This document shows, piece by piece, positions 10,236 to 33,523 of a stretch of 49,221 nucleotides of DNA. The position numbers and the translations under genes are program-made. The DNA comes from a candidate division Zixibacteria bacterium SM23_81 (GTDB lineage: Bacteria > SM23-81), in NCBI GenBank assembly GCA_001304015.1, contig LJUY01000016.1, positions 1 through 49,221 on the forward strand. The letters run 5' to 3'. Positions within the stretch are counted from its first letter, which is position 1; each line of letters starts with the position of its first letter. The notes beneath the pieces are model-generated. The model did not search any database. It had not been told where the DNA came from and saw nothing but the letters and a program-made list of their open reading frames with translations.

Positions 10236-11240
10236 ATGAAGACGGGCGTTAGCTACTATGGCAACAGAATCCCTCGACATGTCAGCGAAGACATGGAGGA
10301 TATCGCTAAAAACCACTGCACCTTTGTGGTCCACACCCTCTCGGAAAACGACCTGAAGTACTACCGCAACACCATGAGTCAGATCGTAGAGCTCTCGCAC
10401 CAAGCGGGTCTGGAAGTTTACCTAGATCCCTGGGGCGTGGGCCGGGTGTTTGGTGGAGAGGCTTTTTCTCACTTCGCTTGCGAACATCTTCAGGCTCGGC
10501 AGATCCTCTCCGACGGCAGCTCTGCACCGGCAGCGTGCTTCAACCATCCGGCCTTTGGGGAATACATGCACCAATGGACTCGGGCGGCCATCGAGACGGG
10601 GGCAGACGTGTTGTTCTGGGATGAGCCTCACTTCATCCAGCCCGTGCCGAAGAACGAAAGGGATCTTTGGGCCTGTCGATGCGAAGCCTGTCAGCAAAAG
10701 TTTCGCCAACAGTTCGGCCATCCCTTACCTTTGAAATACACCGAGGAGGTCCACCGATTTCGCCACGAATCCGTCGTTGACTTCCTTCAGGAGCTCTGTC
10801 AACTGGCCAAATCTCAAGGGCTCCAAAACGCCCTCTGCTTTTTACCCAATCAGGAGGACGAGGATAGCGAAGTGGCCCTGTGGACCCGTTTGGCCCTTAT
10901 AGACGACCTGGACATCATGGGAACTGACCCTTACTGGTGGTCACGAAAGCTGAATGTGAAGGCATATGTGAGCAAACCCGCCCAGAAAATCGCCAAGATG
11001 GCCACCGAATACGGCAAAGAGGGCCAGATGTGGGTGCAGAACTTCCTGATCACGGCAGAAACGGAGGAGTATGTGCGCATAGCCATCCGAACTTTCTATG
11101 AGGCGGGCATCAGAAATATCGCTGCCTGGAGTTACTGGGGGGCTGGCTATATGTCATCGCTGTGCTCGGAGAATCCTGAAAGGGTGTGGAAAATCCTGGG
11201 ACAGGAGTACGCCCATTTGCGGCAAATATCCAAGGATTAA
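10236..11240 (+). CDS. TIM-barrel glycoside hydrolase-like protein
   Basis: The 334-residue product looks like a (beta/alpha)8 glycosidase: DVLFWDEPHF around a strand end, WACRCEACQQKFRQQFG (the C-x-C-x2-C insert seen in several unassigned glycosidase-like families), DIMGTDPYWW and IAAWSYWGAGYMSS. The WDEP acidic pair is a candidate active site. I cannot name the family or substrate. No signal peptide is present, so it would act in the cytoplasm. The ATG at 10236 follows AAGGAG; an in-frame upstream start at 10167 would add 23 poorly conserved-looking residues. It is followed by the endonuclease IV gene. Confidence 0.6.
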   Translation: MKTGVSYYGNRIPRHVSEDMEDIAKNHCTFVVHTLSENDLKYYRNTMSQIVELSHQAGLEVYLDPWGVGRVFGGEAFSHFACEHLQARQILSDGSSAPAACFNHPAFGEYMHQWTRAAIETGADVLFWDEPHFIQPVPKNERDLWACRCEACQQKFRQQFGHPLPLKYTEEVHRFRHESVVDFLQELCQLAKSQGLQNALCFLPNQEDEDSEVALWTRLALIDDLDIMGTDPYWWSRKLNVKAYVSKPAQKIAKMATEYGKEGQMWVQNFLITAETEEYVRIAIRTFYEAGIRNIAAWSYWGAGYMSSLCSENPERVWKILGQEYAHLRQISKD

Positions 11241-11375
11241 GACCCGGATAAACCAATGAAAAGCCAAAAAGAGGAGTACTTCGCGGGATCTTCTGAGGAA
11301 AAGGACGGAGCCGGCTCAGACGAGGCTCTTCTGGAACCGCTTCCCGAGTTCGCCGAGCTGAGAGAAGAATCACCC

Positions 11376-12221
11376 ATGAGGGTAGGGGCTCATGTGTCCA
11401 TCGCCGGACACATCTATGAGGCGGTGGATCGAGCCATCAGTTACGGCTGCGACTGCATGCAGATCTTCTCCCGTTCGCCCCGGAGCTGGAGAGCCAAGGA
11501 GATCAGCCAGGAGGACTCCGCTGAGTTCCGTAAAAGAAGAGAGCACGCTGGGATCGACCCGGTGGTGGTCCACATCCCTTACCTGGTCAACCTTTGCTCG
11601 GTAGATCACATGCTGTACAAAAAATCCACCCAGGAGTTCGCCGCAGACCTGGACCGAGCGGCTTTGATAGGAGCGGACTACTTCGTCACCCACGTGGGCA
11701 GCCATAAGGGAGCTGGAGAGGAGAAAGGGCTGGCCCAGATCTCCAAAGCCCTGCGAATAATATTGACGGAAGATCCTTCCGACGTCCTGGTTCTTCTGGA
11801 GAACACCTCCGGCACAGCCAACTCCATTGGACACACTTTTCAACAGCTCCGGGCCATCATCGAAGCCGTGGATATACCCGGACGGTTGGGGATCTGTTTC
11901 GATACAGCCCACGGTTTTGAGGCCGGCTACGATATAGCCACCCTGGAGGGACTGGAGATGACCCTGGCAGAGCTGAGCCACTGGATCGGCATGGAACACC
12001 TCAAAGTGATCCACGCCAACGATTCCAAAACGGCCCTCAACTCCCGCTCCGACCGTCACGAGCACATCGGCAAGGGGCAAATCGGCCTGGAGGGCTTTCG
12101 AACTATCGTCAATCATCCTCTTCTCAGAGGCCTGCCCTTTATTCTGGAAACGCCTCACGACAAGCTTGGCGGCTATGAAGTGGATATACCCTTACTCCGT
12201 TCCCTTCGCAGGGCCAGATGA
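11376..12221 (+). CDS. nfo: Endonuclease IV (AP endonuclease)
   Basis: The enzyme cuts DNA 5' of abasic sites in base-excision repair using a three-zinc centre. The expected ligands are visible in order: HIPYL, THVGSHKG, LLENTSG, CFDTAHGFEAG, VIHANDSK, SDRHEHIGKG and FILETPHD. From the ATG at 11376 the product is 281 residues, the usual family length. The frame is open back to an ATG at 11256, which would add 40 acidic residues of low complexity. Neither start has a strong ribosome site, so the longer form cannot be excluded. Confidence 0.93.
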   Translation: MRVGAHVSIAGHIYEAVDRAISYGCDCMQIFSRSPRSWRAKEISQEDSAEFRKRREHAGIDPVVVHIPYLVNLCSVDHMLYKKSTQEFAADLDRAALIGADYFVTHVGSHKGAGEEKGLAQISKALRIILTEDPSDVLVLLENTSGTANSIGHTFQQLRAIIEAVDIPGRLGICFDTAHGFEAGYDIATLEGLEMTLAELSHWIGMEHLKVIHANDSKTALNSRSDRHEHIGKGQIGLEGFRTIVNHPLLRGLPFILETPHDKLGGYEVDIPLLRSLRRAR

Positions 12222-15823: not shown

Positions 15824-16627
15824 TTATAGAAAAACAGTTTTCAGCGTCCACGCACCCAGAAAAAGTGTTATAACTCCGATCATCAGTTTCAGTTTCGTTT
15901 CGGGCATTTTCTTCACTGTAATGGCAGCCAGAGGGGTAGAAAGCGCTGCGCCCAAAACAAGGGGAAGAGCAAGATGCCAGTAAATCCCTCTTTTCAGGAT
16001 GAGATAGGTGATGAATCCCGCTAAACAGACAAGCCCTTCCGCCAGAGATGTGCTGCCGATGGAATTTTTTGCAGAACGGCCGGAGATGACTTGTCCCCCG
16101 GTTACTAGAGGACCATACCCCCCACCGGAGATCCCCTTGTTAAATCCGCTCAGCGCTGCGATAAGGACGAATTTCCTCCATCGAAACACTTTGTTCCTTT
16201 TAATATTTACGATGATGTACAACCCGATGGAAAAGATCATCGCCCCTATATACGCCTTAACAACCTCCTTGGGAACATTGATGGAAAAAAAGACCGCCCC
16301 CAAAGCGCCGATGATCCCCAAAACAATTAAAAGATACGTCACCTTGGCATCAAACGATCGGGGAATGTATCCCAGTGCTTGAAGCCGATGCCGACGGATC
16401 TTCTCATCCCTTCTGAAATCGAAAGAGACGTTGCCCACTCTGTGATGGCACACGCCAGCCAAAATCCCGGTTATAAATTCCGAAAAAAGCACAGCGGGGA
16501 CAATCTGAAGTGGCTGAAAGCCCATGATCAACAACAGAGGCGTTAAAGTAGTACCATAACCCATGCCAATAGTGGAGTCCACGTATTCGCACACAAAAGC
16601 CAGTGCAGCGTACAGAGCGTATTCCAT
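15824..16627 (-). CDS. TauE/SafE-family sulfite or small-anion permease
   Basis: The 267-residue protein has about eight membrane helices in the two-half layout of the TauE/SafE (DUF81) family, with GYGTTLTPLLLIMGF in the first half and GISGGGYGPLVTGGQVISG in the second. The family exports or imports small sulfur-containing or organic anions; the substrate here is unknown. I chose the ATG at 16627, which has AAGGAGG 7 nt upstream; the in-frame ATG at 16690 lies at the predicted transcript start. It has its own strong promoter. Confidence 0.88.
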   Translation of the reverse strand: MEYALYAALAFVCEYVDSTIGMGYGTTLTPLLLIMGFQPLQIVPAVLFSEFITGILAGVCHHRVGNVSFDFRRDEKIRRHRLQALGYIPRSFDAKVTYLLIVLGIIGALGAVFFSINVPKEVVKAYIGAMIFSIGLYIIVNIKRNKVFRWRKFVLIAALSGFNKGISGGGYGPLVTGGQVISGRSAKNSIGSTSLAEGLVCLAGFITYLILKRGIYWHLALPLVLGAALSTPLAAITVKKMPETKLKLMIGVITLFLGAWTLKTVFL

Positions 16628-16700
16628 GACGTCCTCCTTGAACATCATCGCTGAGTAGAGTCGGTGAATAATATCGAAGGCATCGTGCATTTATACTACA

Positions 16701-16880: not shown

Positions 16881-17093
16881 TTAGAGGTATCCAAGTTTTT
16901 TGAGCCGCCCTTTTAATAATTTGATCTCCTCGGGTGTGAGTTTTTCCTGGTCCTCTCTGTGTAAGCTTACCAGATCGCGTAAGACATAGACGATAAATTC
17001 GTTAACGCTGCTGAAGCCACTCTCCTCGATGATGTCGCGCAATTTGTTATAAAGCTGGCGTGGTATTTTGATGGTGACCTTGTCTCTGTTCAT
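16881..17093 (-). CDS. Ribbon-helix-helix DNA-binding protein
   Basis: The 70-residue protein begins VTIKIPRQLYNKL, the beta strand of a ribbon-helix-helix fold, followed by two helices through SSVNEFIVYVLRDLV. Such CopG-like proteins bind operator DNA as dimers and often repress their own or nearby genes. A short charged tail ends in LKKLGYL. No clear ribosome site is visible. It lies between the signalling operon and the permease gene and is a candidate binder of the AGAGT/ACTCT palindromes in promoters P2 and P3; that link is inference. Confidence 0.75.
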   Translation of the reverse strand: MNRDKVTIKIPRQLYNKLRDIIEESGFSSVNEFIVYVLRDLVSLHREDQEKLTPEEIKLLKGRLKKLGYL

Positions 17094-17211: not shown

Positions 17212-20200
17212 TCAGAAAAGCGTCCGGTAATAATGCGGCTTTTCCATGGATTCTGACATCAACGCCAATTTGTCATGTTCCCTCTTGACATAGTTCTCTG
17301 TACCCCAAATTCGCAGCGTGTGCTCAAGTTCACTTTCGCTGCCACAGGTGATGATCCGCGGCCCCATAGTAAGGCAATCTCTTATTTCAAATCTTTGTCC
17401 CCCAAGAATTTTATACTGAGGAGAAGGCGGCCGGCAGTCTACGACCACGAGATTACCCTTTGACCCAAAGGGGGTGGAGGACGTTAGGCCCAAGATAATT
17501 CTTCCATCAAAGTATACGTTTAAAGTTTTCACTGCGCCAGCGTCGCTGACGCGGAATGTCTGGCAGGCTCTGTTTTCGACATCGACGATGCTGATTTCAG
17601 CGCAGCTGATGTGTCTCCCTCTTTCTGGTTTACCGGCCATCCCAGTGGCCATCACCACTCTGCCGTCGGGAAACAGACCTATTGTGCTCATCGGCGCTTC
17701 CTGTCCCAATAACACTTTTGCCTTTTCGTCCCCAGGAGCCCATACATACAACTCTCCATCTCCACCGACCCAGTAAATTCTGCCATGACGATCGACGGCC
17801 ATAGCGTTTACCGGGCTTTCATAACATCTCAGCACTTTTACTTGATGACCTGGAATATTCCACACTCTTAGAGTTCCATCCCGATGTCCGGTGAGTATCT
17901 GGCCATCGCGATATAGGACGGCGGAACACACAGGTGTGCCATGCTTTTTTATCCTTGTTATGGTGTTTGTTTGGAAGGCAGTTATCTTCAGCTCCCCCTC
18001 GCTATCGAGGGAACATATGTCCCCGCCAACGACGACCAGATGTTCTGCGGGTCTCTCATGTGCCAGATAATAGAAGACTCGGTCGTTAAATCCGGTCAGG
18101 ACGCCAACGCTACCATCATAGCCACAGCATGCTATTTGCCCCTGCGTATAAAACGCAATTCGATTGACGCTCAAATCATCCAGCTTGATCACCTGCAGCA
18201 GATGAGGCTCCTCCTCTATATTTTCATTTGCGATCCGCGAAAAAGTCGCCTCTTGGGGAGAAAAAGGAGAAACCTCAGCTCGAGAAATTGCTTGGTTCTC
18301 AACAGAGATGTTTTCCCAACGTTCCGAAAGAGTCTGGGCATGAATTCTCAATGGCTTGGTATCCTTTTCAAATCGGCCAATCCTGATTTGGTCACCCCAT
18401 GTGTCCACCTTTTGCCTTTGGAAAACCTCGCGTATTTCCCCTCTGCTTAGCCGGGAAGAAATTGAATTGTCCAGATTGTATATCAGAACTGCACCTTCCC
18501 GGTAAAACCTCGTTTCCTCGATAACCGGCCGTTCCACAAAAGAAAGACGGGTTTTCACGCTTTCCAACAATCCCTCCCTTTCTTCCAGGTTGATTCTTCT
18601 TGTAGAGAACGTGGTTCGGAACTTGACCAAGACATCCAGATAGCCCTTCTTATAAAAAGTTTGCACTATCTGATGAAAGTAAGGTTCATCCCTCCAACCA
18701 TCCAAAATAATGAGTTTGGCGTGGGCATGACCTTCTATAAAATCGTCAAAAAACTCATCGGGATTATCCTCATTCTCGGCCACAGGATAATTTTGATAAT
18801 ATATCTGATCAACGTGTCCTTTTAGCCACCATATGCCCAATATGCGATTCAATATTCTCATGTGCGCTGGATGATCCCTTTGCAGATAGAGTATCTCATT
18901 TTCCTGTAATCCGCCAAATCCGTTCACGATTGACTCGCAGAAATAGGTTTTCCCCGTCCCAGAGTCGCCGGTTACAGCCATGACCACCGGTTTCTTTATT
19001 GAGACGAGGTGTAATAGAGTTTCTGACAGCTCATATAATCCCGTTCTGCTGGGTTTGATGGACAGGAGAGTTGTTGTTGTGAAATTGTGTAAGTAGAGAG
19101 TGTGAAGGAAATTAGGCAAGTCCAATTTTCTTAAAGCAACAGCTGTTTCTTCAAATATCTCGCTATCATTTGCTGTGAGCAACTGCATCAACGTGGCCAC
19201 GATGCTCGCGTCTATGCCCTTATACCTTTTCTTTTGCCCATGCCCAATGGTCCCCATGGCCCAGGCCAGTGAGATTCTCATCTCGCGATCAGCGCTAAGG
19301 GACCATTTGACAAGCGCAGGGAGGGCCTCAATGGCACTAGGACCAAGCTTGCCCAATGCCCAGATGGCTTCCTGTTTTTCCGAAAGCAAAGGTTGATCAT
19401 ATCCAGAAGAGCCTTCGCCCAATTGTACGTGAATACTATCAGGACCTTCCAATACATGCACGAGATGATTCAAGGCCCCCTTCTGCTGAAGATTCCCCAG
19501 GGCGTATATCAAATTGCATATGATATTGCTGTGTCCAGGATCACAAGTCTCCAGATAACTTAAAATGGTACTTGTGGAACGAATGTCCTTGAGCTCTCCT
19601 AAAAAAGCTGATGCCTCATATTGAAGACCGCTTGAGACGTCGATATCCGGGTTTGTGAGCAATTCCAGGCACGGACGTGTGAGACACTCTGGAACTGCTG
19701 TTAACTGCTTCATGACCGGGCTTATCTGTTCGCAGATGACATCATGAACAGGATTTTCTTCTTTTGTCCGCCTAAAGTTGGCCAGCAAATTGTCCATTTG
19801 ATTCCTGACCTTTTCCTCCTGTGCGATGATAGAGCTCACTCTGTTAAATAGACACTCTTTGTCCATCCTCAGTAGCTGAATGGTGTTGAAGAAGATCTCT
19901 GTCTTCAAATGACTCCTCAGTACTCTTTTCACGTCGCATACGAATTCTTCAGCTTTCTCCAAACATCTGGCTCGCCAAGCTTTCCCCCCAGAATCCCAAT
20001 CGGCCACATAAACCTCTGCATTCCATTTGTCTGCATCGTATCCGATAAAGTGGTAGAGCACTTCAATGATGATCAATAATTCATCGCTCTTTGTTGTCTT
20101 GTGATTCAAAATTCTGCCAAAAATCCTATTGGTGACCTCCCAAGAATCCTCATCTCGTATAAACGGATGTATCATGCTTCTAAGCTGTTCTTCATCCTCC

Positions 20201-20379
20201 TTGGTTTGTTTCGCCTCCCAGATTCGGAACCACAATTCGTTGGATATTCTGTCCCTGCGCGTTTGGGGATTTCTCATCCATGTGCCCTTGGGATCCAAAT
20301 AGATCAGCCCGGTGGGGTCAAATTCCGCAAGAATCGGCGCTATTTTTTTTAGCATACCTGTGAGTTCCAGTTTATTCAT
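17212..20379 (-). CDS. HEAT-repeat / P-loop NTPase / WD40 signalling protein
   Basis: The 1055-residue protein has an N-terminal helical part of unknown type (1-220), HEAT-like helical repeats (about 225-430, for example EAIWALGKLGPSAIEALP and RISLAWAMGTIG), a P-loop NTPase with Walker A GDSGTGKT (471-478) and a hydrophobic strand ending in LIILDGW (Walker B, 556-562), and a beta-propeller (about 725-1025) with WD-type blades such as GHRDGTLRVWNI and GGDGELYVWAPG. The kinase-like core resembles uridine kinase/phosphoribulokinase-type P-loops. HEAT and WD40 parts suggest a protein-binding hub switched by nucleotide. The gene overlaps the preceding response-regulator gene by 8 bp, so it is probably its output partner. 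Function is unknown. Confidence 0.8.
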   Translation of the reverse strand: MNKLELTGMLKKIAPILAEFDPTGLIYLDPKGTWMRNPQTRRDRISNELWFRIWEAKQTKEDEEQLRSMIHPFIRDEDSWEVTNRIFGRILNHKTTKSDELLIIIEVLYHFIGYDADKWNAEVYVADWDSGGKAWRARCLEKAEEFVCDVKRVLRSHLKTEIFFNTIQLLRMDKECLFNRVSSIIAQEEKVRNQMDNLLANFRRTKEENPVHDVICEQISPVMKQLTAVPECLTRPCLELLTNPDIDVSSGLQYEASAFLGELKDIRSTSTILSYLETCDPGHSNIICNLIYALGNLQQKGALNHLVHVLEGPDSIHVQLGEGSSGYDQPLLSEKQEAIWALGKLGPSAIEALPALVKWSLSADREMRISLAWAMGTIGHGQKKRYKGIDASIVATLMQLLTANDSEIFEETAVALRKLDLPNFLHTLYLHNFTTTTLLSIKPSRTGLYELSETLLHLVSIKKPVVMAVTGDSGTGKTYFCESIVNGFGGLQENEILYLQRDHPAHMRILNRILGIWWLKGHVDQIYYQNYPVAENEDNPDEFFDDFIEGHAHAKLIILDGWRDEPYFHQIVQTFYKKGYLDVLVKFRTTFSTRRINLEEREGLLESVKTRLSFVERPVIEETRFYREGAVLIYNLDNSISSRLSRGEIREVFQRQKVDTWGDQIRIGRFEKDTKPLRIHAQTLSERWENISVENQAISRAEVSPFSPQEATFSRIANENIEEEPHLLQVIKLDDLSVNRIAFYTQGQIACCGYDGSVGVLTGFNDRVFYYLAHERPAEHLVVVGGDICSLDSEGELKITAFQTNTITRIKKHGTPVCSAVLYRDGQILTGHRDGTLRVWNIPGHQVKVLRCYESPVNAMAVDRHGRIYWVGGDGELYVWAPGDEKAKVLLGQEAPMSTIGLFPDGRVVMATGMAGKPERGRHISCAEISIVDVENRACQTFRVSDAGAVKTLNVYFDGRIILGLTSSTPFGSKGNLVVVDCRPPSPQYKILGGQRFEIRDCLTMGPRIITCGSESELEHTLRIWGTENYVKREHDKLALMSESMEKPHYYRTLF

Positions 20380-21169
20380 CGCTCAATGTCACCAGATTTT
20401 TCAAATCTTCTGTGAGCCTTATCGGCTCAATCAGCAGTATCCATCCGGATCCATAGGGATCTCGCATCACCCGAGAATAGTCCTTTTCCAGCTCTCTATT
20501 GACTGAGATGACCATTCCACTCACAGGAGACCATAGTCTGTGGACATTGCCATTGCTGTCAGTGATTTTTAAGCAGGCCTCCCCCTGATTTACCATCTTG
20601 TTCTTATCTGGGAACTCTATAGAAGACAGTGCTTTTACGGTCGTCAGAAAGACATCGTGCATTCCCACGCGCACGCTGCCATCGTCCTCCACCTTGGCCC
20701 ATGAATGCTCGGGAATGCAATACAGATCAGGTATGAGCGATTCTACTATTTCTTCTTCTTCCGATTCTATTTCGGAGATTAACTTTTTCTCATAGAGTTG
20801 CGTCCTCTGCAGGGCTCGCCACACCAGGCTGCGCAACTCGCTTGGCGCGAATGGCTTCTGCAAATAGTCGAAGGCGCCCAATTTCATGGCTTGCACCGCT
20901 GTCTTAATCGACGGATACCCGGTGATCATGATTACCGGAAGATCAGGTCTGTTGTCCTTGACAGCCCTCAAGAGATCCATGCCGCTCATGCCCGGCATCA
21001 TCAGATCTACGATGATCACGTCATACCGGTTTTCCGCCTCCTTTTTCAGGGCTTCTTCTCCGCTGAGCGCCATATCCACGTTGTACATCTCTTGATCTAA
21101 GGCACTGGACATACTTTTGCAGACCGGTATTTCATCGTCCACGACTAGAACCTTGGCTCTGTTTTCCAA
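20372..21169 (-). CDS. Response regulator fused to lipoate-less H-protein (GcvH)-like domain, copy 1
   Basis: Residues 1-120 are a receiver domain: VVDDE, phosphoacceptor Asp55 in IIVDLMMPG, T83 region MITGYP and LQKPF. Residues about 148-258 match glycine-cleavage H protein: CIPEHSWAKVEDDGSVRVG, LWSPVSGMV and MRDPYGSGWILLIEP. The lysine that carries lipoate in GcvH aligns with Gly207 (7 residues before SPVSG), so this domain cannot be lipoylated in the usual way. There is no DNA-binding domain. The likely start is TTG at 21169 with GGAG 7 nt upstream. It follows copy 2 after a 124-bp gap and overlaps the HEAT/WD40 gene. Confidence 0.88.
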   Translation of the reverse strand: MENRAKVLVVDDEIPVCKSMSSALDQEMYNVDMALSGEEALKKEAENRYDVIIVDLMMPGMSGMDLLRAVKDNRPDLPVIMITGYPSIKTAVQAMKLGAFDYLQKPFAPSELRSLVWRALQRTQLYEKKLISEIESEEEEIVESLIPDLYCIPEHSWAKVEDDGSVRVGMHDVFLTTVKALSSIEFPDKNKMVNQGEACLKITDSNGNVHRLWSPVSGMVISVNRELEKDYSRVMRDPYGSGWILLIEPIRLTEDLKNLVTLSDE

Positions 21170-21293
21170 TTTTGAACTCCTAAGGATCTAAGTTCTGCTT
21201 TCCAGCCCCATGTCCTAAAAAATATCCAGACTCCACGGATCAGATCTCGACCAGGCGTTGTCCACTACTTCCAATTCTTCCGTATATCTCGAT

Positions 21294-22094
21294 TTATTCA
21301 AGGACAAATGGAGCCAGATTTTTAAGGTCCTCCTCTAAGCATGCCGGCTTGATCAATAGCAACCACCCAGATCCGTAAGGATCTCTCATCACCCGGGAAT
21401 AATCCTCTTTGAGTTCCTCATTGATGGAGATAACTCTGCCACTCACCGGCGACCACATTCTGTGGAGATTCCCGCTGGCGTCAACCACCCACAAACACGC
21501 ATCTCCTTGTCCTATCTTTTCATCTTCGTATGGGAAATCGATGGAGGTTACCTTCTTTATGGTCATCAGAAAGATATCATGAACTCCTATTCGCACATTG
21601 CCATCGTTCTCAACTTTCGCCCAGCAATGGTCTGGAATACAATACAGATCCTTTGGCGGAGGAGGTTCTGCTCTTTTTTGCTTCCCTAATGCTGCTTTAG
21701 GGATTTTTTCTTGCTCGTAAAGCCGCCTTCTCTCCAGGGCTCGGGAGACAACGCTGCGCAATTCTTTCGGCGTGAACGGCTTGGGAATATAGTCGAAGGC
21801 GCCCAACATCACAGATTGCACCGCCGTCTCCATGGTTGGATATCCTGTGACCATAATCACCACGATATCCGGCCTTTTCTCCCTCACAGCCTTCAGGAGA
21901 TCCATGCCGCTCACACCCGGCATCATGAGATCAACAAGCATGATATCATACCGGGTTTCCTGTTCCTTCTCGAGAGCCTCTTCTCCGCTCAGGGTCGTGT
22001 CAATGACGTAGTCTTCAGCCTCCAGTGCGCTGGATATACTTCTGCAGACTGGTAGTTCATCATCCACGACCAGAATTTTCACCTTGTTTTCCAT
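21294..22094 (-). CDS. Response regulator fused to lipoate-less H-protein (GcvH)-like domain, copy 2
   Basis: This is a paralogue of the next gene, 266 residues. The receiver has VVDDE, Asp55 in MLVDLMMPG, MVTGYP and IPKPF. A proline-rich linker (EPPPPKD) leads to the H-protein-like domain with CIPDHCWAKVENDGNVRIG, MWSPVSGRVISINEEL and MRDPYGSGWLLLIKP. The lipoyl lysine position is Gly208. The start ATG at 22094 has a perfect AAGGAGGTG site. It lies 16 bp after the sensor kinase gene, so kinase and regulator are a cognate pair. Output must be by protein contact because no effector enzyme or DNA-binding domain is present. Confidence 0.9.
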   Translation of the reverse strand: MENKVKILVVDDELPVCRSISSALEAEDYVIDTTLSGEEALEKEQETRYDIMLVDLMMPGVSGMDLLKAVREKRPDIVVIMVTGYPTMETAVQSVMLGAFDYIPKPFTPKELRSVVSRALERRRLYEQEKIPKAALGKQKRAEPPPPKDLYCIPDHCWAKVENDGNVRIGVHDIFLMTIKKVTSIDFPYEDEKIGQGDACLWVVDASGNLHRMWSPVSGRVISINEELKEDYSRVMRDPYGSGWLLLIKPACLEEDLKNLAPFVLE

Positions 22095-22110
22095 TTTTCA
22101 CCTCCTTGTT

Positions 22111-24090
22111 CTAAGAGTTCTTCTCCTTGGTGTCACTCACCGGGAGAAGGATACTGACCGTTGTCCCCTTTCCCACTTCGCTTTGCACCTCTATTTTCCC
22201 CCCGTGCTGTTGCACAATCCCATAGCTCACAGAGAGCCCCAGCCCAGTGCCCGTTTTCTCCTTGGTGGTAAAGAAGGGATCAAAAATCTTGGTGATGTTC
22301 TCTGTGGAGATGCCGCAGCCATTGTCTCGAAAGTTCACAGTCACAAAATGATTCTCCGACAAAATCTTAGAACTGATGAATAAATCGCCTCCTGCTGGCA
22401 TAGCCTCCAGGGCATTCAGGATTACATTGGTGAAGACCTGTTCTATTTTGTTGCCATCGATCATGATTTCGGGCAGGGCGAGATCCAAGTCTTTTTCGAT
22501 TTTGACTTTGTGAGCCAGAGCCTCGCTGCTTAAAAGTAGTAGGGTTTTTTCAATAATTTTGTTGACATCGGTAAGTTTTTTCTCGGGTTGAGTCTGTCTG
22601 GAGAATTCCAAGAGCCCCTTTACGATGCTACCGCACCGAGCCGTTTCATCTGTGATTAATTCCAAATTTTCCCTAAATCGATCGTCTTTTTTCAACTTTT
22701 CAGCGATGAGATGGCTGTTGATCAATATGGAGGTCAGGGGGTTGTTGATCTCATGGGCTATTCCTGCGGCCAATTTTCCCAAGGAAGTCAACTTCTCCGA
22801 CTGAATAAGCTGGTCTTGAGTCGCTTTGAGCTCCTCGGTCTTCTCTTTGACTTTATCCTCTAGAGTCCTGGTTAACATCTGATAGCCCTCGGTGGCCTTT
22901 TGGAGTTCCTCGGTCATCCGGTTAAAGGAGGCAGCCAGCTGACCGATTTCGTCACTCGACTGTATGGGCAACCGATATTCGAGATTTCCTCGAGCAACTT
23001 TATCTGTGGCAGAGGACAATGCTTTTAATGGCTTGACGACCTTTGTGGTGGTAAAATAAGCCACGACTGACAGGAGGATCACGCTGAGGAAGGCGATTCC
23101 CAAAAATGTGAACAAAACGCGATTTTTCAGATCAACGTACGGGGCCTCCAGCATGCCCACATAAAGCATGCCGATGATGTCTCCCTTCAAATTCATAATG
23201 GGCTCATAGGCGGTGATGTACCAGTCATTGACCACAAACGCCCGACCGATCCAGGGCAGGCCTTCGCTGATCACTTGATCATACACCTCTTTGGATACAC
23301 GAGTTCCGATAGCCCTGGAGCCATCCTCTCTCAACACGTTGGTGGAGATGCGCAGATCCCCCTGAAAGATAGTCGCCGTCCCTACATCTTTTCCTTTATA
23401 CGTCTCACCCCGGTAAACGATGTCCTTTGCCCTGTCGACAATCTCAGAGTTTCGATTCAGCAATTTCCCCCCCAGCAGGATGCCTATGAGGTCACCGTTA
23501 TAGTCGTAAACGGGCGCTGCCGCTGTGATCAGCATCCCGGAAGTTTCCTCGACCTCTGCCCTGGGTTTCGCTTTAGGAGTGAGAATCAATTCTATCCTGG
23601 CCTGATCGGCAAGATCTCCGCCCTCTTTTAGCAACTGTTCTTGGGGGATAATTTGAGTGGATACAACCTCTTTTGCATTGGTCAGAACATACTTCACGAT
23701 ATCATTATCGATTCGATCGCCGAAGAGGTCTGGTCTTCGAGCTCTGATAAGAACACGCCCCTGTTCATCGGTTAAATTCAGAATATCCAAGGATTCAGAC
23801 TCCCTGATATTCTGCAATTCCTTCAGCAGATGCTCAATGTCATTCCTCGATATGGCATCTTTCAGAAAAAATCTCACCGCCGTAAGGCGGATGATATCTT
23901 CGACATTCTCGCTTTCATCCTTGTACACTTCCCGTGCCGAATTAAGGTCTAGCCTCACTTTGTCTTGAGCCTGCTGGACAATTGTGTCGCCGATCAGGCG
24001 CATACCTACGATGACGGACAGGAAGACGCCTACCAGGATAACCACCGAGAAACTGAGAATTAACTTTGTTCTCAACGAAAAGTAGCGCAT
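22111..24090 (-). CDS. Membrane sensor histidine kinase (Cache-HAMP-HisKA-HATPase)
   Basis: The 659-residue kinase has membrane helices at about 8-32 and 324-347 enclosing a periplasmic Cache-type sensor domain of about 290 residues (GMLITAAAPVYDYNGDLIG, WYITAYEPIMNLKGDIIG). HAMP follows at about 348-400 and a coiled coil at 400-435. His446 lies in LAAGIAHEINNPLTSIL, and the ATPase part has the G1 box in VNFRDNGCGIS and G2 in TGTGLGLSVSYGI. It should phosphorylate the two downstream regulators. I chose the ATG at 24090 with GGAG 6 nt upstream instead of a TTG at 24114. The 69 bp to the DUF2490 gene suggest one transcript. Confidence 0.9.
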   Translation of the reverse strand: MRYFSLRTKLILSFSVVILVGVFLSVIVGMRLIGDTIVQQAQDKVRLDLNSAREVYKDESENVEDIIRLTAVRFFLKDAISRNDIEHLLKELQNIRESESLDILNLTDEQGRVLIRARRPDLFGDRIDNDIVKYVLTNAKEVVSTQIIPQEQLLKEGGDLADQARIELILTPKAKPRAEVEETSGMLITAAAPVYDYNGDLIGILLGGKLLNRNSEIVDRAKDIVYRGETYKGKDVGTATIFQGDLRISTNVLREDGSRAIGTRVSKEVYDQVISEGLPWIGRAFVVNDWYITAYEPIMNLKGDIIGMLYVGMLEAPYVDLKNRVLFTFLGIAFLSVILLSVVAYFTTTKVVKPLKALSSATDKVARGNLEYRLPIQSSDEIGQLAASFNRMTEELQKATEGYQMLTRTLEDKVKEKTEELKATQDQLIQSEKLTSLGKLAAGIAHEINNPLTSILINSHLIAEKLKKDDRFRENLELITDETARCGSIVKGLLEFSRQTQPEKKLTDVNKIIEKTLLLLSSEALAHKVKIEKDLDLALPEIMIDGNKIEQVFTNVILNALEAMPAGGDLFISSKILSENHFVTVNFRDNGCGISTENITKIFDPFFTTKEKTGTGLGLSVSYGIVQQHGGKIEVQSEVGKGTTVSILLPVSDTKEKNS

Positions 24091-24159
24091 GGAGCACTCC
24101 ACTTTCTTGAGCAAGCCGAAACCAAACTTTGTGTCTGGGAAGAAGTCAGAGATAAAACA

Positions 24160-24819
24160 TCATAGCGCGGCTTTCAGCTTGACTCCCACGACATGATAAT
24201 CAGTCCAGTTATCACCCTTTTCGCTGGACTGCCAGAGATAATAAGCCTCAATCTGTAGATGTTCTACTAACTGCCCCTTGAAGCCACCTGCTAGACGGTT
24301 GCGATAGAGTTTGCCCTCGTCTACAATGAGGAATATTTCATCGGCGAGATAGGGTCGAAAAAGAAATCTGGTCCAATTTGTAAGGATAGCAAAAGATAAT
24401 TTGTTCCTGTACATCCAGATATTCTCCCTGCCCTCCCTGATGCGGCGCTCAATGCTATTTCTGTCTTCAAAACCAAATTTTCGCCAGCTCCATTTAAACG
24501 TCCCGTTGAGATGTGGTCGGTTTTCTTCCTTCCAATCGCCCTCTCTTTTCTCGTAAATCTGCGCATAGTCACATCCCAGAATAAACCAAGGGGTCGCTCG
24601 CCAAGCAATACCGAAGTCCGTATATCGATAATAGAGCTTCACCATATTATCGCCCAACCTGAACTGCTGTTCCAATCCCGCTTTCCATGACTCAGAGAGA
24701 TTCACTTGCATGCCTCCCAAGCTCCAAAACTGCCAATCCCCGTCGTCGGAGGCGAAGGCTGCTAGCCCCGTCATTACTCCCAGGCAGGCGATCAGTATCA
24801 TGACCATGAGTTTTTTCAT
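24160..24819 (-). CDS. DUF2490 outer-membrane beta-barrel protein
   Basis: The 219-residue protein has a signal peptide (MKKLMVMILIACLGVMTGLAAFA) and alternating aromatic strands ending in an aromatic/hydrophobic tail, consistent with a small outer-membrane barrel. Family marks include WQFWSLGGMQVNLSESWKAG, YYRYTDFGIAWRATPWFILG and the RNRLAGGF strand. Its role is unknown. It is first in the apparent operon with the sensor kinase and sits behind promoter P3. Regulation of an envelope function is a reasonable guess. Confidence 0.8.
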   Translation of the reverse strand: MKKLMVMILIACLGVMTGLAAFASDDGDWQFWSLGGMQVNLSESWKAGLEQQFRLGDNMVKLYYRYTDFGIAWRATPWFILGCDYAQIYEKREGDWKEENRPHLNGTFKWSWRKFGFEDRNSIERRIREGRENIWMYRNKLSFAILTNWTRFLFRPYLADEIFLIVDEGKLYRNRLAGGFKGQLVEHLQIEAYYLWQSSEKGDNWTDYHVVGVKLKAAL

Positions 24820-26415: not shown

Positions 26416-27132
26416 TCAACTTCGTATACACACAAGCCGGACCCCTTTGACCTGCCGAAAGATGGCTCCTTCCTGGATATGTGTAAGAACCATCTGGGGA
26501 TCGGCAATCTGAACTCCGCATAGAGCGTCTAAACCGTTGTCGAGAAGAACCGGCGAGAGAGGCGTTGTGGCCCCCAACATGATTCGGAAGCTGTCTTTTC
26601 GACAACTTTTCAGAATCCCATCAAGGGTGTGGTTGATCAATGTAGTGGCGCTTATGGCTATCACATCGGCCAGGGGCAGTATTCGGCCGACTGCGCTTTC
26701 TGGCAGGTCGCCTGGCTGCAGTCGTTTTTCCAGCACCCAGAGAGCTTCGGCCTGATCCTTGATTCTGGTCACAAAAGGAAAGTGGCCGATGATAGCTATC
26801 CCCTTGCCGGTCCCTTTCTCCACAATCAGTTGTTCCGCATTGACCTCCTCTCCCTGAACTTCAGGCAGCATGGAGTTGATAGCCGCCAGGCCTATACTTG
26901 TCTCCAGGAGGCTATCCGAATGAGCCAACTGGCAGAGCTCCAGGGCGGACTTTTCCGTCAAGTGGCCAGCTTGCTCTACAGGCCGGGCCGGGTGACCAGG
27001 GCACTCATCCCGCAAAGCCGATGCCAAGCCCAGGTGACGACTCAACACGGCTATCCAGTAGGCACCGACCCGCACCTCTTGAACGGGATGGTCCGGACCC
27101 AACGTGGCGATGAGATCGTCGATGGGGAACAT
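26416..27132 (-). CDS. DUF364 putative heavy-metal-chelating protein
   Basis: The 238-residue product has an N-terminal DUF4213-like part (VRVGAYWIAVLSRHLGLASALRDE) and a C-terminal DUF364 part with AIIGHFPFVTRIKD, VIAISATTLINHTLDGIL, IMLGATTPLSPVLLDNGLD and VKGVRLVCI. DUF364 is considered a metal-chelation domain and lies near molybdate, iron or cofactor genes in many anaerobes. The start ATG has GAGGG about 8 nt upstream. The frame is open upstream into the broken DUF59 gene without a stop until 27175, so an ancestral fusion or lost stop is possible. Confidence 0.82.
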   Translation of the reverse strand: MFPIDDLIATLGPDHPVQEVRVGAYWIAVLSRHLGLASALRDECPGHPARPVEQAGHLTEKSALELCQLAHSDSLLETSIGLAAINSMLPEVQGEEVNAEQLIVEKGTGKGIAIIGHFPFVTRIKDQAEALWVLEKRLQPGDLPESAVGRILPLADVIAISATTLINHTLDGILKSCRKDSFRIMLGATTPLSPVLLDNGLDALCGVQIADPQMVLTHIQEGAIFRQVKGVRLVCIRS

Positions 27133-27427
27133 AACGCTATCCCTCTCTTGCAGCGGCTTTCTCAGCTTCTCGGCCTAAACGAAACCGTCAATCTCCTCCA
27201 AAACCCTGGTCACCCCAGGCAACCCTTACAGTGTCTGCTGAATCTTGATGCCCAGCAGGCAGACGAGCAAGGTGGACCGAAAGGTCGGGAACATCTCTCC
27301 CCTGATCTCATCACCCCTTCAAATTCTGCACCAGGCTCATGTGCACCATACCCAGCCCGGTTTCCAGACCTATGACCGCTCGCAGGGCTTGGAGAACTTT
27401 TTCCTCAGGGGTTATGTTTCTTTTCAT
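27133..27427 (-). pseudogene. MIP18/DUF59 family gene, frameshifted and with two nonsense codons
   Basis: From an ATG at 27427 the frame reads EEKVLQALRAVIGLETGLG and LVQNLKG, then hits TGA-TGA. One base of a GGGG run (about 27314-27317) must be ignored to continue: GDEIRGEMFPTFRSTLLVC, LGIKIQQTL, stop TAA (27226-27228), GLPGVTRVLEEIDGFV, stop TAG (27175-27177), AEKLRKPLQE. This order matches MIP18/DUF59 Fe-S assembly proteins with a Cys-x-x-G near the middle. The stops fit single transitions from CAA and TGG. It overlaps the end of the transporter gene by 23 bp. Confidence 0.75.
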
Positions 27428-28682
27428 CCGATCTGTGCGTGGGGGCAACCAAGGGGGTAAGTTGGCTGGCCGTCAGCGCCGCCAGATTCTCGTGTCCGCT
27501 GCCATCGAGCGCTTTGTAAATCTCCACATATTTGTCACGAAGGGTGTGGAACCCGATTTCGCCCAGTTCTCTGACAATGAGTGTATCGACGCCCTCTCGC
27601 TCCACGAAGTCGTTGACCACCGCCAGACCGGCGCGAATCTCCCTATTTCGAAAGGGATTGATGAACACGTGCGTTTGCAGCACATCCCCTCCCTCCAGAC
27701 GGACCACGGCGAAGTAGGAAGCTCGCCCAAAATGGTTGGCCAGGTGAGAACTCAATCCCGATTGGTCCTCCAGAGGAATCATCACTGTTCGCCGTTGCGA
27801 TTGAAATGGCTCGATATGAACGGTAAAGCTGTCTACATGGGGAAAGCTTTCCTTCAGACGGTCTACCACCTGATGAGAGATCTGGTGACCCCGGGTCACA
27901 TCCACCGTTCGCCCAACTTCAATACTGACCTCACCAAACCAGAAAGGCCCTGCCCGACGCACCTTCAAACCATCCACCCCTCGGACACCCTCGGTGGTGC
28001 GGATGAGCTCGCTCATCCGCTTCTCCATCTTGGCATCCAGGCTGGCGTCCATTAGACCATACAAGGCCACTCGGCCATTCTTCACCCCTGCGTAGAAAAC
28101 CAGCAGGGCGAGGCCCAGAGTGAGAACTCCCTCAACGTAGGGAACCAGGAAATAGCTGGCCCCGATGGCCACTAAAACCAGCAGGGAGGTGAAGATATCT
28201 GCCCGGGATTCGTCGGCATTGGCTAACAGGCTTTGCGCGTTTATCTGCATCCCTATGCGCCTCTCCCACCGAGCCACGAAAAAGGCGAAGAGAGCGGAGG
28301 CCAAGGAGACACCCATGGCTATTCCTGGCACACTGATATCCGGTGCAACGGATATTTTGCTCAGGCCTTCCAGAAAGAGCTCCACAGCAGCGTAGATGAT
28401 GATGGCGGAGACCAGCAGAGTGGCCAAGGTCTCTGCCTTATAGAAACCGTAGGGAAATTTATGGGTGGCCTTCCGTGTGGCGATTTTCAGTCCAAACCAG
28501 GAGGCGAAGATAGCCAGAGCGTCGGCGGCGGTATGCACGGAATCTGCGACCAGGGCGATGGAGCCGCTGAGAACGCCCACGCCGGCCTTCAGCAAGGCCA
28601 CCAAGAGAGTCGTCACCGTCACGACTCCGGCGACTCGCCGTCCTTCTTTGAGATCCACCATCTCTTTTCCCCGGCTCGGCAT
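27405..28682 (-). CDS. Cation diffusion facilitator fused to a NifX-like domain
   Basis: Residues about 10-210 form the six-helix CDF transporter with metal-site motifs VADSVHTAAD in helix 2 and ANADESRAD in helix 5 (where many CDF proteins have His, here Glu). The cytoplasmic CDF tail (about 215-300) has VRRAGPFWFGEVSIEVG and FTVHIEP. The last about 115 residues resemble dinitrogenase iron-molybdenum cofactor (NifX/NifY) proteins, with SSHLANHFGRASYFAVV and VDTLIVRELGEIG. CDF proteins export divalent metals such as Zn, Fe or Mn using proton exchange. The fused domain suggests metal or cluster delivery. It is 7 bp downstream of the Mrp gene. Confidence 0.88.
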   Translation of the reverse strand: MPSRGKEMVDLKEGRRVAGVVTVTTLLVALLKAGVGVLSGSIALVADSVHTAADALAIFASWFGLKIATRKATHKFPYGFYKAETLATLLVSAIIIYAAVELFLEGLSKISVAPDISVPGIAMGVSLASALFAFFVARWERRIGMQINAQSLLANADESRADIFTSLLVLVAIGASYFLVPYVEGVLTLGLALLVFYAGVKNGRVALYGLMDASLDAKMEKRMSELIRTTEGVRGVDGLKVRRAGPFWFGEVSIEVGRTVDVTRGHQISHQVVDRLKESFPHVDSFTVHIEPFQSQRRTVMIPLEDQSGLSSHLANHFGRASYFAVVRLEGGDVLQTHVFINPFRNREIRAGLAVVNDFVEREGVDTLIVRELGEIGFHTLRDKYVEIYKALDGSGHENLAALTASQLTPLVAPTHRSDEKKHNP

Positions 28683-28689
28683 ACCTCCC

Positions 28690-29961
28690 TCAGTGATCGC
28701 AGATGTTCTCGCCCATCTCCAGAGTTCCGTCTAGATATCCGCGAACCAACTCCTCAGGCGTGAGGGAGGCAGCACCGATGACCACCTGGATGCCCTGGCT
28801 CTCAAAATGGCCCTGAGCCCGCCTGCCCATTCCTCCGGCGATGATCACCTGGGCTCCCTGTTCATGAAGCCATCTGGGCAAGGCGCCGGGCTCGTGAGGC
28901 GGTGGAGTGGCCAATGTGGTCTTTTTAATCTGGCCACCCTCTGCCTCCACCAGGGCAAACTGCTGGGAGTGGCCGAAATGAGCTGCCAGTTTTCCCTGAG
29001 ACACGGGAATGGCGATTTTCAGGGACGAAGTCTCTTTTTTCTGGGGGGCGCTCCTCTCAGATTTTGTCTCTGGGGGTAAGGTCTCCTTCCCATGCGATTC
29101 GCCCATTCCGACCAGAAGAGTTTGAACAACCCCTTCGAAGGCCTTGGCCGTTTCCGTCTTTGAATATTCGGACACGAAAGGCACGCCCTTGTCAGAGGCC
29201 TCCACCAATTGAGGATCGATGGGGATGCTGCCCAAGAAGGGCACGTTCATCTCCATGGCCATACGTTCACCACCACCCTTTTTAAAGACCTGGATTTCCC
29301 TGCCACAATGCGGACAGACCAATCCGCTCATGTTCTCGATGACGCCCAGCACGGGCACGCTCACCTGACGACAGAAGGTGATGGACTTGCGCACATCTAT
29401 GACCGACAAATCCTGAGGGCTGGTCACCACTATGGCCCCGTCGATGTTGGGGATGAGTTGGGCTACCGATAAGGGTTCATCTCCCGTGCCCGGAGGAGAG
29501 TCGATGATCAGATAGTCCAGCTTGCCCCATTCCACATCCTTTAGAAATTGCTTGATGGCCCCCATCTTCAAAGGACCCCGCCAGATCACCGCCAGATCCT
29601 GTGCGCTCAGCAGAAATCCCATGGACATCACCTTGAGATTGGCGGACATCTCGATGGGTTGAATGGTCCCCTGACCCATCCGGGGCACCCGATCTTCAAT
29701 GCCCAACAGCTTGGGTATGCTGGGACCATGAAAATCGATGTCTAACAGGCCCATATGATATCCGTCCAAAGCCAAAGTAATGGCCAAATTGGCGGCTACG
29801 GTGCTTTTCCCAACTCCACCCTTCCCACTGAGAACCATGATCTTGTGCTGTATTTCGCCCATCCTCTTGTTCAAGGCCTCCTGTTCCAACACCTGCATGG
29901 CCTCTCGATTGAGGCTCTTGGCCGCCTCCTTGCCAGTTTGCTGGCCAGCTTTCGCGCTCAT
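28690..29961 (-). CDS. Mrp/NBP35-type ATPase with C-terminal NifX-like domain
   Basis: The 423-residue protein has a deviant Walker A SGKGGVGKST (about residues 45-54), DIDFHGPSIPKLLG, IIDSPPGTGDEPLS and the Fe-S binding VCPHCG. These mark the Mrp/ApbC carriers that hold and transfer 4Fe-4S clusters. After a charged linker, residues about 315-423 are NifX-like (KIAIPVSQGKLAAHFGHSQQF, VIIAGGMGRRAQ). The same fusion is found in orange-protein gene clusters of Desulfovibrio. The ATG at 29961 has AAGGAG 5 nt upstream; a GTG at 29967 is too close to it. Confidence 0.92.
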   Translation of the reverse strand: MSAKAGQQTGKEAAKSLNREAMQVLEQEALNKRMGEIQHKIMVLSGKGGVGKSTVAANLAITLALDGYHMGLLDIDFHGPSIPKLLGIEDRVPRMGQGTIQPIEMSANLKVMSMGFLLSAQDLAVIWRGPLKMGAIKQFLKDVEWGKLDYLIIDSPPGTGDEPLSVAQLIPNIDGAIVVTSPQDLSVIDVRKSITFCRQVSVPVLGVIENMSGLVCPHCGREIQVFKKGGGERMAMEMNVPFLGSIPIDPQLVEASDKGVPFVSEYSKTETAKAFEGVVQTLLVGMGESHGKETLPPETKSERSAPQKKETSSLKIAIPVSQGKLAAHFGHSQQFALVEAEGGQIKKTTLATPPPHEPGALPRWLHEQGAQVIIAGGMGRRAQGHFESQGIQVVIGAASLTPEELVRGYLDGTLEMGENICDH

Positions 29962-30269
29962 CGTCACTCCTTTCTATGTAAGTCGACCTGCCACAAATCG
30001 CCTTCAACTCTCATATAGATTATTTACCTTGTAAACGGCCTTCAATTGTTCTTGCGATAAGTTGCTTCTTTCGCAATCTTATAATAGCTTACATCGAGTC
30101 GGCCCTCAGAGAACGACAACAGCCTGAAGGGTTATCAAACTTTGTCAAATATTTCCTTAACTTATCAAAACTCATCTTTAATTACCAGTTCTGCTCATAA
30201 AATTATGATACCAGCATAACAACCCCAAGGATATGGTACACCTCAGAGAAAATTAATTGGAGAAACCTT
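29962..30269 (-). other. Gene-free spacer upstream of the Mrp gene
   Basis: The A+T-rich spacer likely holds the Mrp promoter. An inverted pair TTGCGA/TCGCAA at about 30051-30075 recalls the GCAAT boxes of the sigma-54 regulator. A possible -24/-12 site is off by one base in spacing (see rejected items). Confidence 0.4.
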
Positions 30270-30923
30270 CTACTCCTTTAACTCTATGGCCAAGACAAAA
30301 AAGGGGGCCAGTGGTATTTGGCCAAAGGGGCCTTTCCACCAAGAAGATATGCGCATCTTAGCCCTAACGCCTAACTGACGCGATACCCTCCGGACCATGC
30401 TCATCAACGCAGGACCCGAGTAAAACCGGGTCTGAGAAAAAATTGTGGCGCGAGAGATGGCCCGTACACGACGACCGAGAGCCAACAGGCTCAGGGAGTT
30501 CAAAACACCCAATATGATCCCATTACGACTCACGCGAATGGCCTCAGCTAGGGCTTTCTCCGGGCGTGCTGTAGACTCCAGGGTGGTAATCATGGTGGAG
30601 AAATGAAAGCTCTTATCTGCGAAGGGAAGCTTGGCCGCATCACCCCAGCAGTAAACTATGTCGTTTCCGGAAAGCTGTTTGGCCTGCGAGAGCATCTTTC
30701 TCTCCAGGTCCAAGCCCCAGACCTGCCAGCCCAACTCCCGAAACCAGCGGGTGAAATGGCCCGTGCCGCATCCGATGTCCAACAACTGACGCCCCCTCGC
30801 TGGGCCCAAAGACTCCTCGATGAGACCTTTCTCTAAAACGTCGTACCTTCTCCCCCGTGAGGTCTGGTACCATGCCTCATAGATCTCAGCCACATCGGCC
30901 CAGCCGGGCTGTGTCCTGGCCAA
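30270..30923 (-). CDS. Class I SAM-dependent methyltransferase
   Basis: The 217-residue protein has motif I LLDIGCGTGHFTRWF, acidic loop GLDLERKML, CWGDAAKLPFADKSF and the post-motif region VSRNGIILGVLN, like UbiE/Methyltransf_11 enzymes. The methyl acceptor is unknown. It starts with TTG at 30923, 5 bp after the second MinD-type gene, so it is co-transcribed with the ATPases and may modify a component of that system. Confidence 0.82.
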   Translation of the reverse strand: MARTQPGWADVAEIYEAWYQTSRGRRYDVLEKGLIEESLGPARGRQLLDIGCGTGHFTRWFRELGWQVWGLDLERKMLSQAKQLSGNDIVYCWGDAAKLPFADKSFHFSTMITTLESTARPEKALAEAIRVSRNGIILGVLNSLSLLALGRRVRAISRATIFSQTRFYSGPALMSMVRRVSRQLGVRAKMRISSWWKGPFGQIPLAPFFVLAIELKE

Positions 30924-30928
30924 AGGAT

Positions 30929-31795
30929 TTACCCCCCCGCCAACTCATAGCTAATGTGTCGCCAGAGCTTCTCAATCTCCTTGGCGACAAGCCCACTGGA
31001 ATACTCCACCACAGTCTTTCCCTGTACCATAGCTTTGGTAACCACTGTGTCATAGGGAATCCTGCCCATCAGCTTCAGCTTGCGCCCACGACAAAAATCC
31101 TCCACCTGGCCGGTCAGCTCCGGGTTGAGGTCGAATTTGTTCACACAGACCAAGGCCGGAATGTGAAAATGAGCAGCCAAATCCACCACCCGTTTCATAT
31201 CGTGAAGGCCGGACAGCGTCGGCTCGGTCACCACCAACACGGCAGTGGCGCCGGCTATGGAGGAGATCACCGGGCAGCCGATGCCCGGAGCGCCATCTAC
31301 GAGAACTAAGTCCAAACCCTCCTTTTCAGCCAGCAGCTTGGCATTCTGGCGGACCACCGCCACCAGCTTGCCCGAGTTCTCCTCGGCGATGCCTAGTTTG
31401 GCGTGTACCAAGGGACCGAAACGGGTGTCGGACAAAAACCACTGGCCGGATACGTTTTCCTGGAGCTTTATGGCCTCCTCAGGGCAGAAGTGGACGCAAA
31501 CTCCACAGCCCTCACAGGCGATCTTGTCCACCACGTAATTTTCGGAGATGGCCTCGTAGCGACACACTTCTCGACATTTATCACACTGGACACAGCGCCC
31601 CGGGTCGATGACCGCCGATTTGCTGCTGCGAAAATCCTCCCGGTGTTTCACTCGTGGCTCCAAGAGCAGATGGAGGTCGGCGGCGTCCACATCGCAGTCG
31701 GCCAACACTTTCCTCTCAACTAGAGCTGCAAAAGAACCCACAATGCTGGTCTTGCCCGTTCCGCCCTTGCCGCTTATGACCACCAGCTCCTTCAC
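30929..31795 (-). CDS. MinD-family ATPase with inserted 2x[4Fe-4S] ferredoxin domain (second of pair)
   Basis: The 288-residue protein has the deviant Walker A ISGKGGTGKTS at residues 7-17, then a ferredoxin insert with CVQCDKCREVC and CEGCGVCVHFC, then the Walker B VDGAPGIGCP and VTEPTLSGLHDMKRV. Pairs of such ATPases are part of the orange-protein complex in Desulfovibrio. They probably load or move a metal cluster using ATP, with electrons through the ferredoxin insert. It overlaps the first ATPase gene by 4 bp (ATGA), which supports equal production. Confidence 0.92.
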   Translation of the reverse strand: MKELVVISGKGGTGKTSIVGSFAALVERKVLADCDVDAADLHLLLEPRVKHREDFRSSKSAVIDPGRCVQCDKCREVCRYEAISENYVVDKIACEGCGVCVHFCPEEAIKLQENVSGQWFLSDTRFGPLVHAKLGIAEENSGKLVAVVRQNAKLLAEKEGLDLVLVDGAPGIGCPVISSIAGATAVLVVTEPTLSGLHDMKRVVDLAAHFHIPALVCVNKFDLNPELTGQVEDFCRGRKLKLMGRIPYDTVVTKAMVQGKTVVEYSSGLVAKEIEKLWRHISYELAGG

Positions 31796-32655: not shown

Positions 32656-32679
32656 CCCATAAATCCTCGACGTGAACAG

Positions 32680-33477: not shown

Positions 33478-33523
33478 GGTCAAAACTCACCTGAGCTCAT
33501 TTTAAAGATGTCACTTCTAGCTC

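Follow-up and report, generated by a model that had tools for sequence, protein, structure and literature searches.

The H-protein fold of GcvH (Pfam PF01597, GCV_H) is marked by a set of motifs (W, DPYGxGW, SPxSGxV, xxVN) and by a lipoyl lysine on a hairpin. GcvH-like LbpA proteins, the lipoate-binding proteins of the Hdr-like sulfur oxidation pathway of sulfur oxidisers, are linked to Hdr-type genes and keep the lipoyl lysine in 95 of 95 aligned sequences (PMC6067878). A carrier homologue lacking its cofactor lysine can act as a regulator: the BADC proteins of plants are homologues of the biotin carrier without the lysine, and they regulate acetyl-CoA carboxylase (PMC7712654). Response regulators of the NtrC, OmpR and NarL types have AAA and/or helix-turn-helix output domains, and others act by binding proteins. 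Here we describe a two-component operon of candidate division Zixibacteria bacterium SM23_81 (contig LJUY01000016.1; the whole stretch of 49,221 nucleotides analysed is referred to as the window), in which two response regulators, RR1 and RR2, carry an H-protein-like output domain that has lost the lipoyl lysine.

The kinase and regulator genes are arranged as follows:

22111-24114, minus strand: sensor histidine kinase with Cache, HAMP, HisKA and HATPase_c domains (Pfam)
21294-22094, minus strand: RR1, receiver plus H-protein-like output domain, 266 amino acids (Pfam Response_reg 5.5e-29, GCV_H 1.3e-16)
21315-21650, minus strand: H-protein-like domain of RR1, with Gly208 at the former lipoyl position and hairpin His211 (profile match)
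20372-21169, minus strand: RR2, receiver plus H-protein-like output domain, 265 amino acids (Pfam Response_reg 1.1e-31, GCV_H 1.3e-18)
20393-20728, minus strand: H-protein-like domain of RR2, with Gly207 at the former lipoyl position and hairpin His210 (profile match, AlphaFold, Foldseek)

The sequence-only reading of this DNA had described a kinase followed by two paralogous response regulators, and the genes, their coordinates and their Pfam domains (Cache, HAMP, HisKA and HATPase_c in the kinase, receivers in the regulators) bear this out. The kinase gene ends 16 bp upstream of RR1, and RR2 starts with TTG just after a ribosome-binding-like AGGAG. RR2 has the receiver catalytic residues D11, D12, D55, T83 and K105 (numbered as in RR2); D12, D55, T83 and K105 are invariant in 11 aligned fusions of a receiver to a GcvH-like domain, and D11 is invariant in the rows that reach that site. 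The window regulators have two marks of a response regulator, a receiver active site and an adjoining kinase gene. Neither has an AAA or helix-turn-helix output domain (Pfam, down to E 1), which separates them from the NtrC, OmpR and NarL types. With an intact receiver site, an adjoining kinase gene and no DNA-binding domain, they resemble the protein-binding response regulators, and differ from those described in the literature searched in having GCV_H as the output domain.

The C-terminal domain had been proposed to be an H-protein fold, and structure prediction agreed with the Pfam assignment. An AlphaFold model of RR2, built on the 11-row alignment, reached a mean predicted local distance difference test score (pLDDT) of 85.7 and a predicted template modelling score of 0.80. 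Foldseek matched it to GcvH crystal structures (3hgb, 3a7a_B, 3ab9, 1onl_A) with E of about 1e-10 and template modelling scores of 0.77-0.82 by target length. A profile of 14 H-like domains matched GcvH chains of known structure, the strongest match being at 1e-22. A VIA-align comparison listed only receiver domains and has no bearing on the H-like part.

The canonical GcvH of the same genome reads VEAVKAVSELYSP at the lipoyl hairpin, where RR2 reads ITDSNGNVHRLWSP and RR1 reads VVDASGNLHRMWSP. The hairpin loop of both regulators is one residue longer than that of GcvH and contains no lysine. Because of the extra residue, the counterpart of the lysine depends on the side of anchoring: it is Gly207 (RR2) or Gly208 (RR1) when the alignment is anchored on the proline, and Ser or Asn when it is anchored on the other side. 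The earlier assignment of glycine to the lipoyl site is therefore exact for the first anchoring, and lysine is missing under either. We rejected glycine as a meaningful replacement, since the residue varies across the fusions (G, L, E, R, S, N or D by alignment). With the lysine lost, the window domains are predicted to be unable to carry lipoate at the usual place. They share the fold and most motifs with GcvH, but differ from it in the missing lysine, the longer hairpin with a conserved histidine, the fused receiver and the surroundings, as no glycine cleavage system gene was found among the Pfam-scanned neighbours of the operon. They share with LbpA a GcvH-like domain and, in one fusion of another genome, an HdrC-like domain, but the lysine that is strictly conserved in LbpA is absent from all of the fusions. 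They share with BADC the loss of the cofactor lysine from a carrier homologue and, presumably, the role of a regulator; they differ in the carrier family and in being a two-component output, and the client is known for BADC.

Protein and profile searches gathered 33 different receiver-fused domains that were long enough to use. Fusion-bearing records were labelled Deltaproteobacteria, Zixibacteriota, Nitrospirae, Burkholderiales, Candidatus Sulfotelmatobacter, Planctomycetota and others. Lysine occupied the lipoyl column in none of the 33 fused domains compared with 64 of 118 unfused relatives, and histidine stood five residues before the hairpin proline (P-5) in 27 of 33 compared with 1 of 117; these counts are descriptive and carry no significance test, because profiles containing fused members yielded part of the fused set and the sequences are related. 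The sole unfused domain with the P-5 histidine (L212) belongs to an open reading frame (ORF) cut by a contig end, and is therefore probably fused too. In a tree of 126 domains, based on a short alignment and with modest support, 27 of 29 fused rows fell into one group (Shimodaira-Hasegawa-like approximate likelihood ratio test, 85), and two membrane-anchored fusions (L011, L037) lay outside it. At least two fusion events are therefore likely, and the concentration of most fusions in one clade suggests that the combination is old and maintained. A survey of 245 genomes of the Nitrospirota group gave, among the matches listed, stand-alone H-protein lengths and no new fusion among the fetched loci.

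We give about an even chance to the view that these proteins work by phosphorylation-gated protein docking through a pseudo-carrier domain, so that the two-component output would be a protein-protein contact. In this scheme, the Cache kinase would sense an extracytoplasmic ligand and phosphorylate D55 of RR1 and RR2. The lysine-less H-like domain would retain the docking surface of a carrier, and the conserved hairpin histidine would have gained a role. Phosphorylation of the receiver would expose or rearrange the pseudo-carrier, which would then bind or release a client protein. In the window lineage the likeliest client would be a HEAT/P-loop/WD40 protein encoded by the next, translationally coupled gene; in other lineages the clients would differ and would often be electron-transfer complexes encoded adjacently.

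The H-like domain could instead be a leftover of a decayed module, with the receivers simply draining phosphate from the kinase. Two similar regulators stand side by side here, a layout that is seen with phosphate sinks. We consider this improbable, since distant lineages share a well-conserved version of the domain that bears a new and specific signature, and the 64-87% domain identity between the window and a second cassette of the same assembly exceeds what chance decay would leave.

The closeness of the RR2 fold to GcvH also suggests a competitor, in which the lysine-less domain would vie with genuine lipoylated H-proteins for partner enzymes or for lipoate ligase, and phosphorylation would raise or lower glycine cleavage, a lipoyl relay or an Hdr-type pathway. 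Plant BADC proteins act on acetyl-CoA carboxylase in this manner (PMC7712654). The genome has the proteins for such competition. It contains ten GCV_H matches: four are the regulators of the two cassettes, two are lysine-bearing H-proteins (C33, C79), and the remaining ones are receiver-less and lie near heme-type or PAS kinases, NtrC regulators, NrfD and Fe-S (iron-sulfur) genes. It also carries a gene of the lipoate-ligase family. The link of H-like LbpA to Hdr complexes (PMC6067878) and the HdrC-like domain of one fusion point in the same direction. In contrast, none of the loci read has gcvT, gcvP or a lipoate ligase gene next to the fusion, and the hairpin that lipoyl enzymes recognise is one residue longer here and has a new conserved histidine. 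We therefore regard competition as unlikely.

The docking scheme was compared with the neighbourhoods of the fusions in other genomes, where domain names outside the Pfam runs were assigned by eye. The commonest neighbour of a receiver-GcvH gene is a kinase gene directly upstream (most loci; also L256 and L257). Electron-transfer genes occur at several loci. In L010, a kinase bearing CxxCH motifs comes first, then an NtrC regulator, two receiver-GcvH genes, a receiver-GcvH-4Fe4S (HdrC-like) fusion, an HdrB-like gene and an HdrA-like gene. The fusion (10836-12182) holds a receiver, GCV_H and the 4Fe-4S domain in one protein, so that a receiver is built into a putative electron-transfer subunit. 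In L015, a receiver-GcvH gene is directly followed by a fusion of a receiver to a NuoE-type [2Fe-2S] thioredoxin-like ferredoxin (10810-11745; PF01257, 2e-48), with NuoF/NuoG-like genes alongside. In L065 (4054-5811), a receiver-GcvH-receiver protein with a C-terminal match to HycI-like hydrogenase maturation protease precedes hydrogenase-like genes. Genes for an Fe-S protein and NrfD follow the fusion in four loci (L047, L264, L011, L037). In the Zixibacteria-type group, most fusions come after a PAS kinase that has an additional N-terminal region.

The HdrC-like fusion and the NrfD and Fe-S neighbours of the four loci hint at docking to redox proteins. One explanation of this kind is direct gating of electron flow, in which the whole family would bind Fe-S, NrfD, Hdr or hydrogenase subunits according to phosphorylation, the redox client of the window regulators being encoded elsewhere in the genome. 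The 4Fe4S, NuoE and HycI fusions and the four NrfD loci speak for it. It is nevertheless quite unlikely in our estimation: such genes adjoin neither the window operon nor its sister-genus copy, most Zixibacteria-type copies are without them, and the neighbour pattern is a raw observation without a random-gene background. A broader statement is that regulators across phyla use a cofactor-stripped lipoyl-carrier fold with a hairpin histidine as a docking subunit under phosphorylation control, which sets how active electron-transfer complexes are without acting through transcription. The receiver-GcvH-HdrC and receiver-NuoE fusions would then be built-in forms, and respiration would be controlled directly. 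We find this possible but doubtful.

For the docking scheme in the window itself, the remaining genes of the unit and those beyond it are as follows:

24160-24819, minus strand: DUF2490 protein, 219 amino acids, opening the apparent operon (Pfam PF10677, E 1.7e-21)
17212-20379, minus strand: HEAT/P-loop/WD40 protein, 1055 amino acids (Pfam HEAT_2 1.3e-8, WD40 4.8e-9)
18946-18969, minus strand: Walker A motif GDSGTGKT, residues 471-478 of the 1055-residue protein (sequence)
~18694-18714, minus strand: Walker B-like LIILDGW, residue 556 of the same protein (sequence)
16881-17093, minus strand: ribbon-helix-helix-like (CopG-type) ORF, 70 amino acids (family assigned by eye)
15824-16690, minus strand: TauE/SafE family permease (Pfam PF01925, 1.2e-28)

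All coordinates were confirmed, and the transcript order is DUF2490, kinase, RR1, RR2 and the 1055-residue gene; the DUF2490 gene is an addition to the unit as first described. RR2 and the 1055-residue gene overlap by 8 bp, as had been stated, and the second cassette has the same overlap by coordinates. HEAT and WD40 repeats of the large protein lie above the Pfam cut-offs, so that part of the earlier description stands. The P-loop part is less firm: the Walker A motif is intact, but the AAA/PRK matches are below threshold, and searches of Pfam and of PDB sequences gave no family or solved relative of this region above threshold. An AlphaFold model of the 1055-residue protein from its single sequence was unusable (mean pLDDT 37.7).

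The second cassette lies on contig C31 (8988 bp; locus L089) in the order radical SAM, DUF2490, kinase, RR1, RR2, HEAT/WD40 and 70-residue ORF, with 68-81% protein identity to the window (80.8% for the kinase and 67.6% for the DUF2490 protein). Segmental duplication could account for it, or the contig may come from a related organism binned with this genome; the assembly has an estimated contamination of 4%, and its only TauE copy is that of the window. Whichever its origin, the layout of the unit has been kept through considerable divergence. The two copies of the 1055-residue protein are 75% identical, most alike in the HEAT and P-loop parts (84%) and least at the N-terminus (62%), and the Walker A and Walker B-like motifs are identical. 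Identity of the two genes at codon positions 1, 2 and 3 is 83, 88 and 65%, a purifying pattern. From this similarity and the greater divergence at third positions, the gene is not noise within the assembly.

The nearest relative among the genomes examined (G001, same family, other genus) has, in this order, a kinase, one regulator, the 70-residue ORF and the TauE/SafE permease, with neither a second regulator nor a HEAT/WD40 gene. Its kinase is 66.0% identical to that of the window and its permease (L132 6539-7342) 74.2%. The HEAT/WD40 gene was either gained in the window lineage or lost in the sister genus. In a search of 98 genomes, most of them sole representatives of other lineages, the window's own assembly was the only one with the full-length protein, and the other matches ran only through the WD40 repeats. 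No convincing relative of the first 735 residues of the protein turned up among 297 genomes from the L010 phylum. The HEAT/WD40 protein as a general partner of the receiver-GcvH fusions was rejected by these surveys together with one of 29 genomes.

Several of these results weigh against the docking scheme, above all in its last step. The HEAT/P-loop part was present in only 1 of the 29 fusion-bearing or same-phylum genomes, namely its own. Since the protein is missing from all other fusion genomes, its role as client has the gene overlap as its basis; the family works elsewhere without it, which makes this the weakest step. Electron-transfer genes do not adjoin the window operon among the Pfam-scanned neighbours, nor are they prominent around the Zixibacteria-type fusions, which adjoin the PAS kinase and a pyridoxal-phosphate enzyme or unrelated genes. 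Finally, functions other than docking also maintain conserved clades. Of the neighbourhood on which the sequence-only reading had relied, the pair of kinase and receiver-GcvH regulator is widespread, but the pairing with the HEAT/P-loop/WD40 protein occurs in its own assembly only, twice. A carrier fold serving as a signalling adaptor is still the best explanation we can offer, but the nucleotide-driven hub to which it had been assigned may hold in the window lineage only and does not define the system.

A route through transcription is offered by the 70-residue ORF. The regulators could bind and titrate its ribbon-helix-helix-like product, for example, and the ORF directly follows the unit in all three cassettes (window, C31 and sister genus), whether the HEAT/WD40 gene is present or not. 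We regard this as very improbable, as the ORF has no Pfam match at 0.01, starts 119 bp past the stop of the HEAT/WD40 gene and was seen in the three cassettes examined. The claim that the whole unit is free of DNA-binding domains holds for RR1 and RR2, but is uncertain for the unit, since the assignment of the ORF was made by eye.

Some further modules were observed. In L256 (4403-5377) and the related loci L257 and L261, all of the Zixibacteria-type group, an uncharacterised protein precedes a pair of PAS kinase and receiver-GcvH; it has a weak protein-kinase match that lies below the cut-off (PF00069, 3.6e-7). A recurring module (L189, L190, L193 and L090 of the window genome) contains up to three receiver-less GcvH-like proteins, with the lysine in some and not in others and two apparently membrane-anchored, together with NrfD, a Tat-type Fe-S protein, a CxxCH-containing kinase and an NtrC regulator. 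A gene for an M54 (archaemetzincin-like) peptidase often adjoins it (Pfam-tested only for L091). Upstream of the unit, at 26416-34567 on the minus strand of the window, lies a metal/Fe-S cluster encoding DUF364, a cation efflux protein and an Mrp/NUBPL ATPase that each have a NifX-type domain, two MinD-like ATPases carrying ferredoxin domains, a protein of the metallo-beta-lactamase fold and a further NifX-type protein. We presume that it resembles the ORP cluster of sulfate reducers.

No description of GCV_H as a response-regulator output domain was found in the literature searched, which was covered in part, and InterPro or similar databases may already list the architecture. The view that no such system had been described is to be narrowed accordingly: protein-binding outputs of response regulators are already known, and the part that appears new is the lysine-less GCV_H output with its hairpin histidine. 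Proteins of this type are probably annotated at present as glycine cleavage H-proteins. If our reading is true, the combination of a missing lysine and a histidine at P-5 of the hairpin would identify them, and direct, non-transcriptional control of electron transfer would become a testable idea. A carrier-protein fold would join the list of two-component outputs, and the family would clearly exemplify the conversion of an enzyme's cofactor carrier into a regulator.

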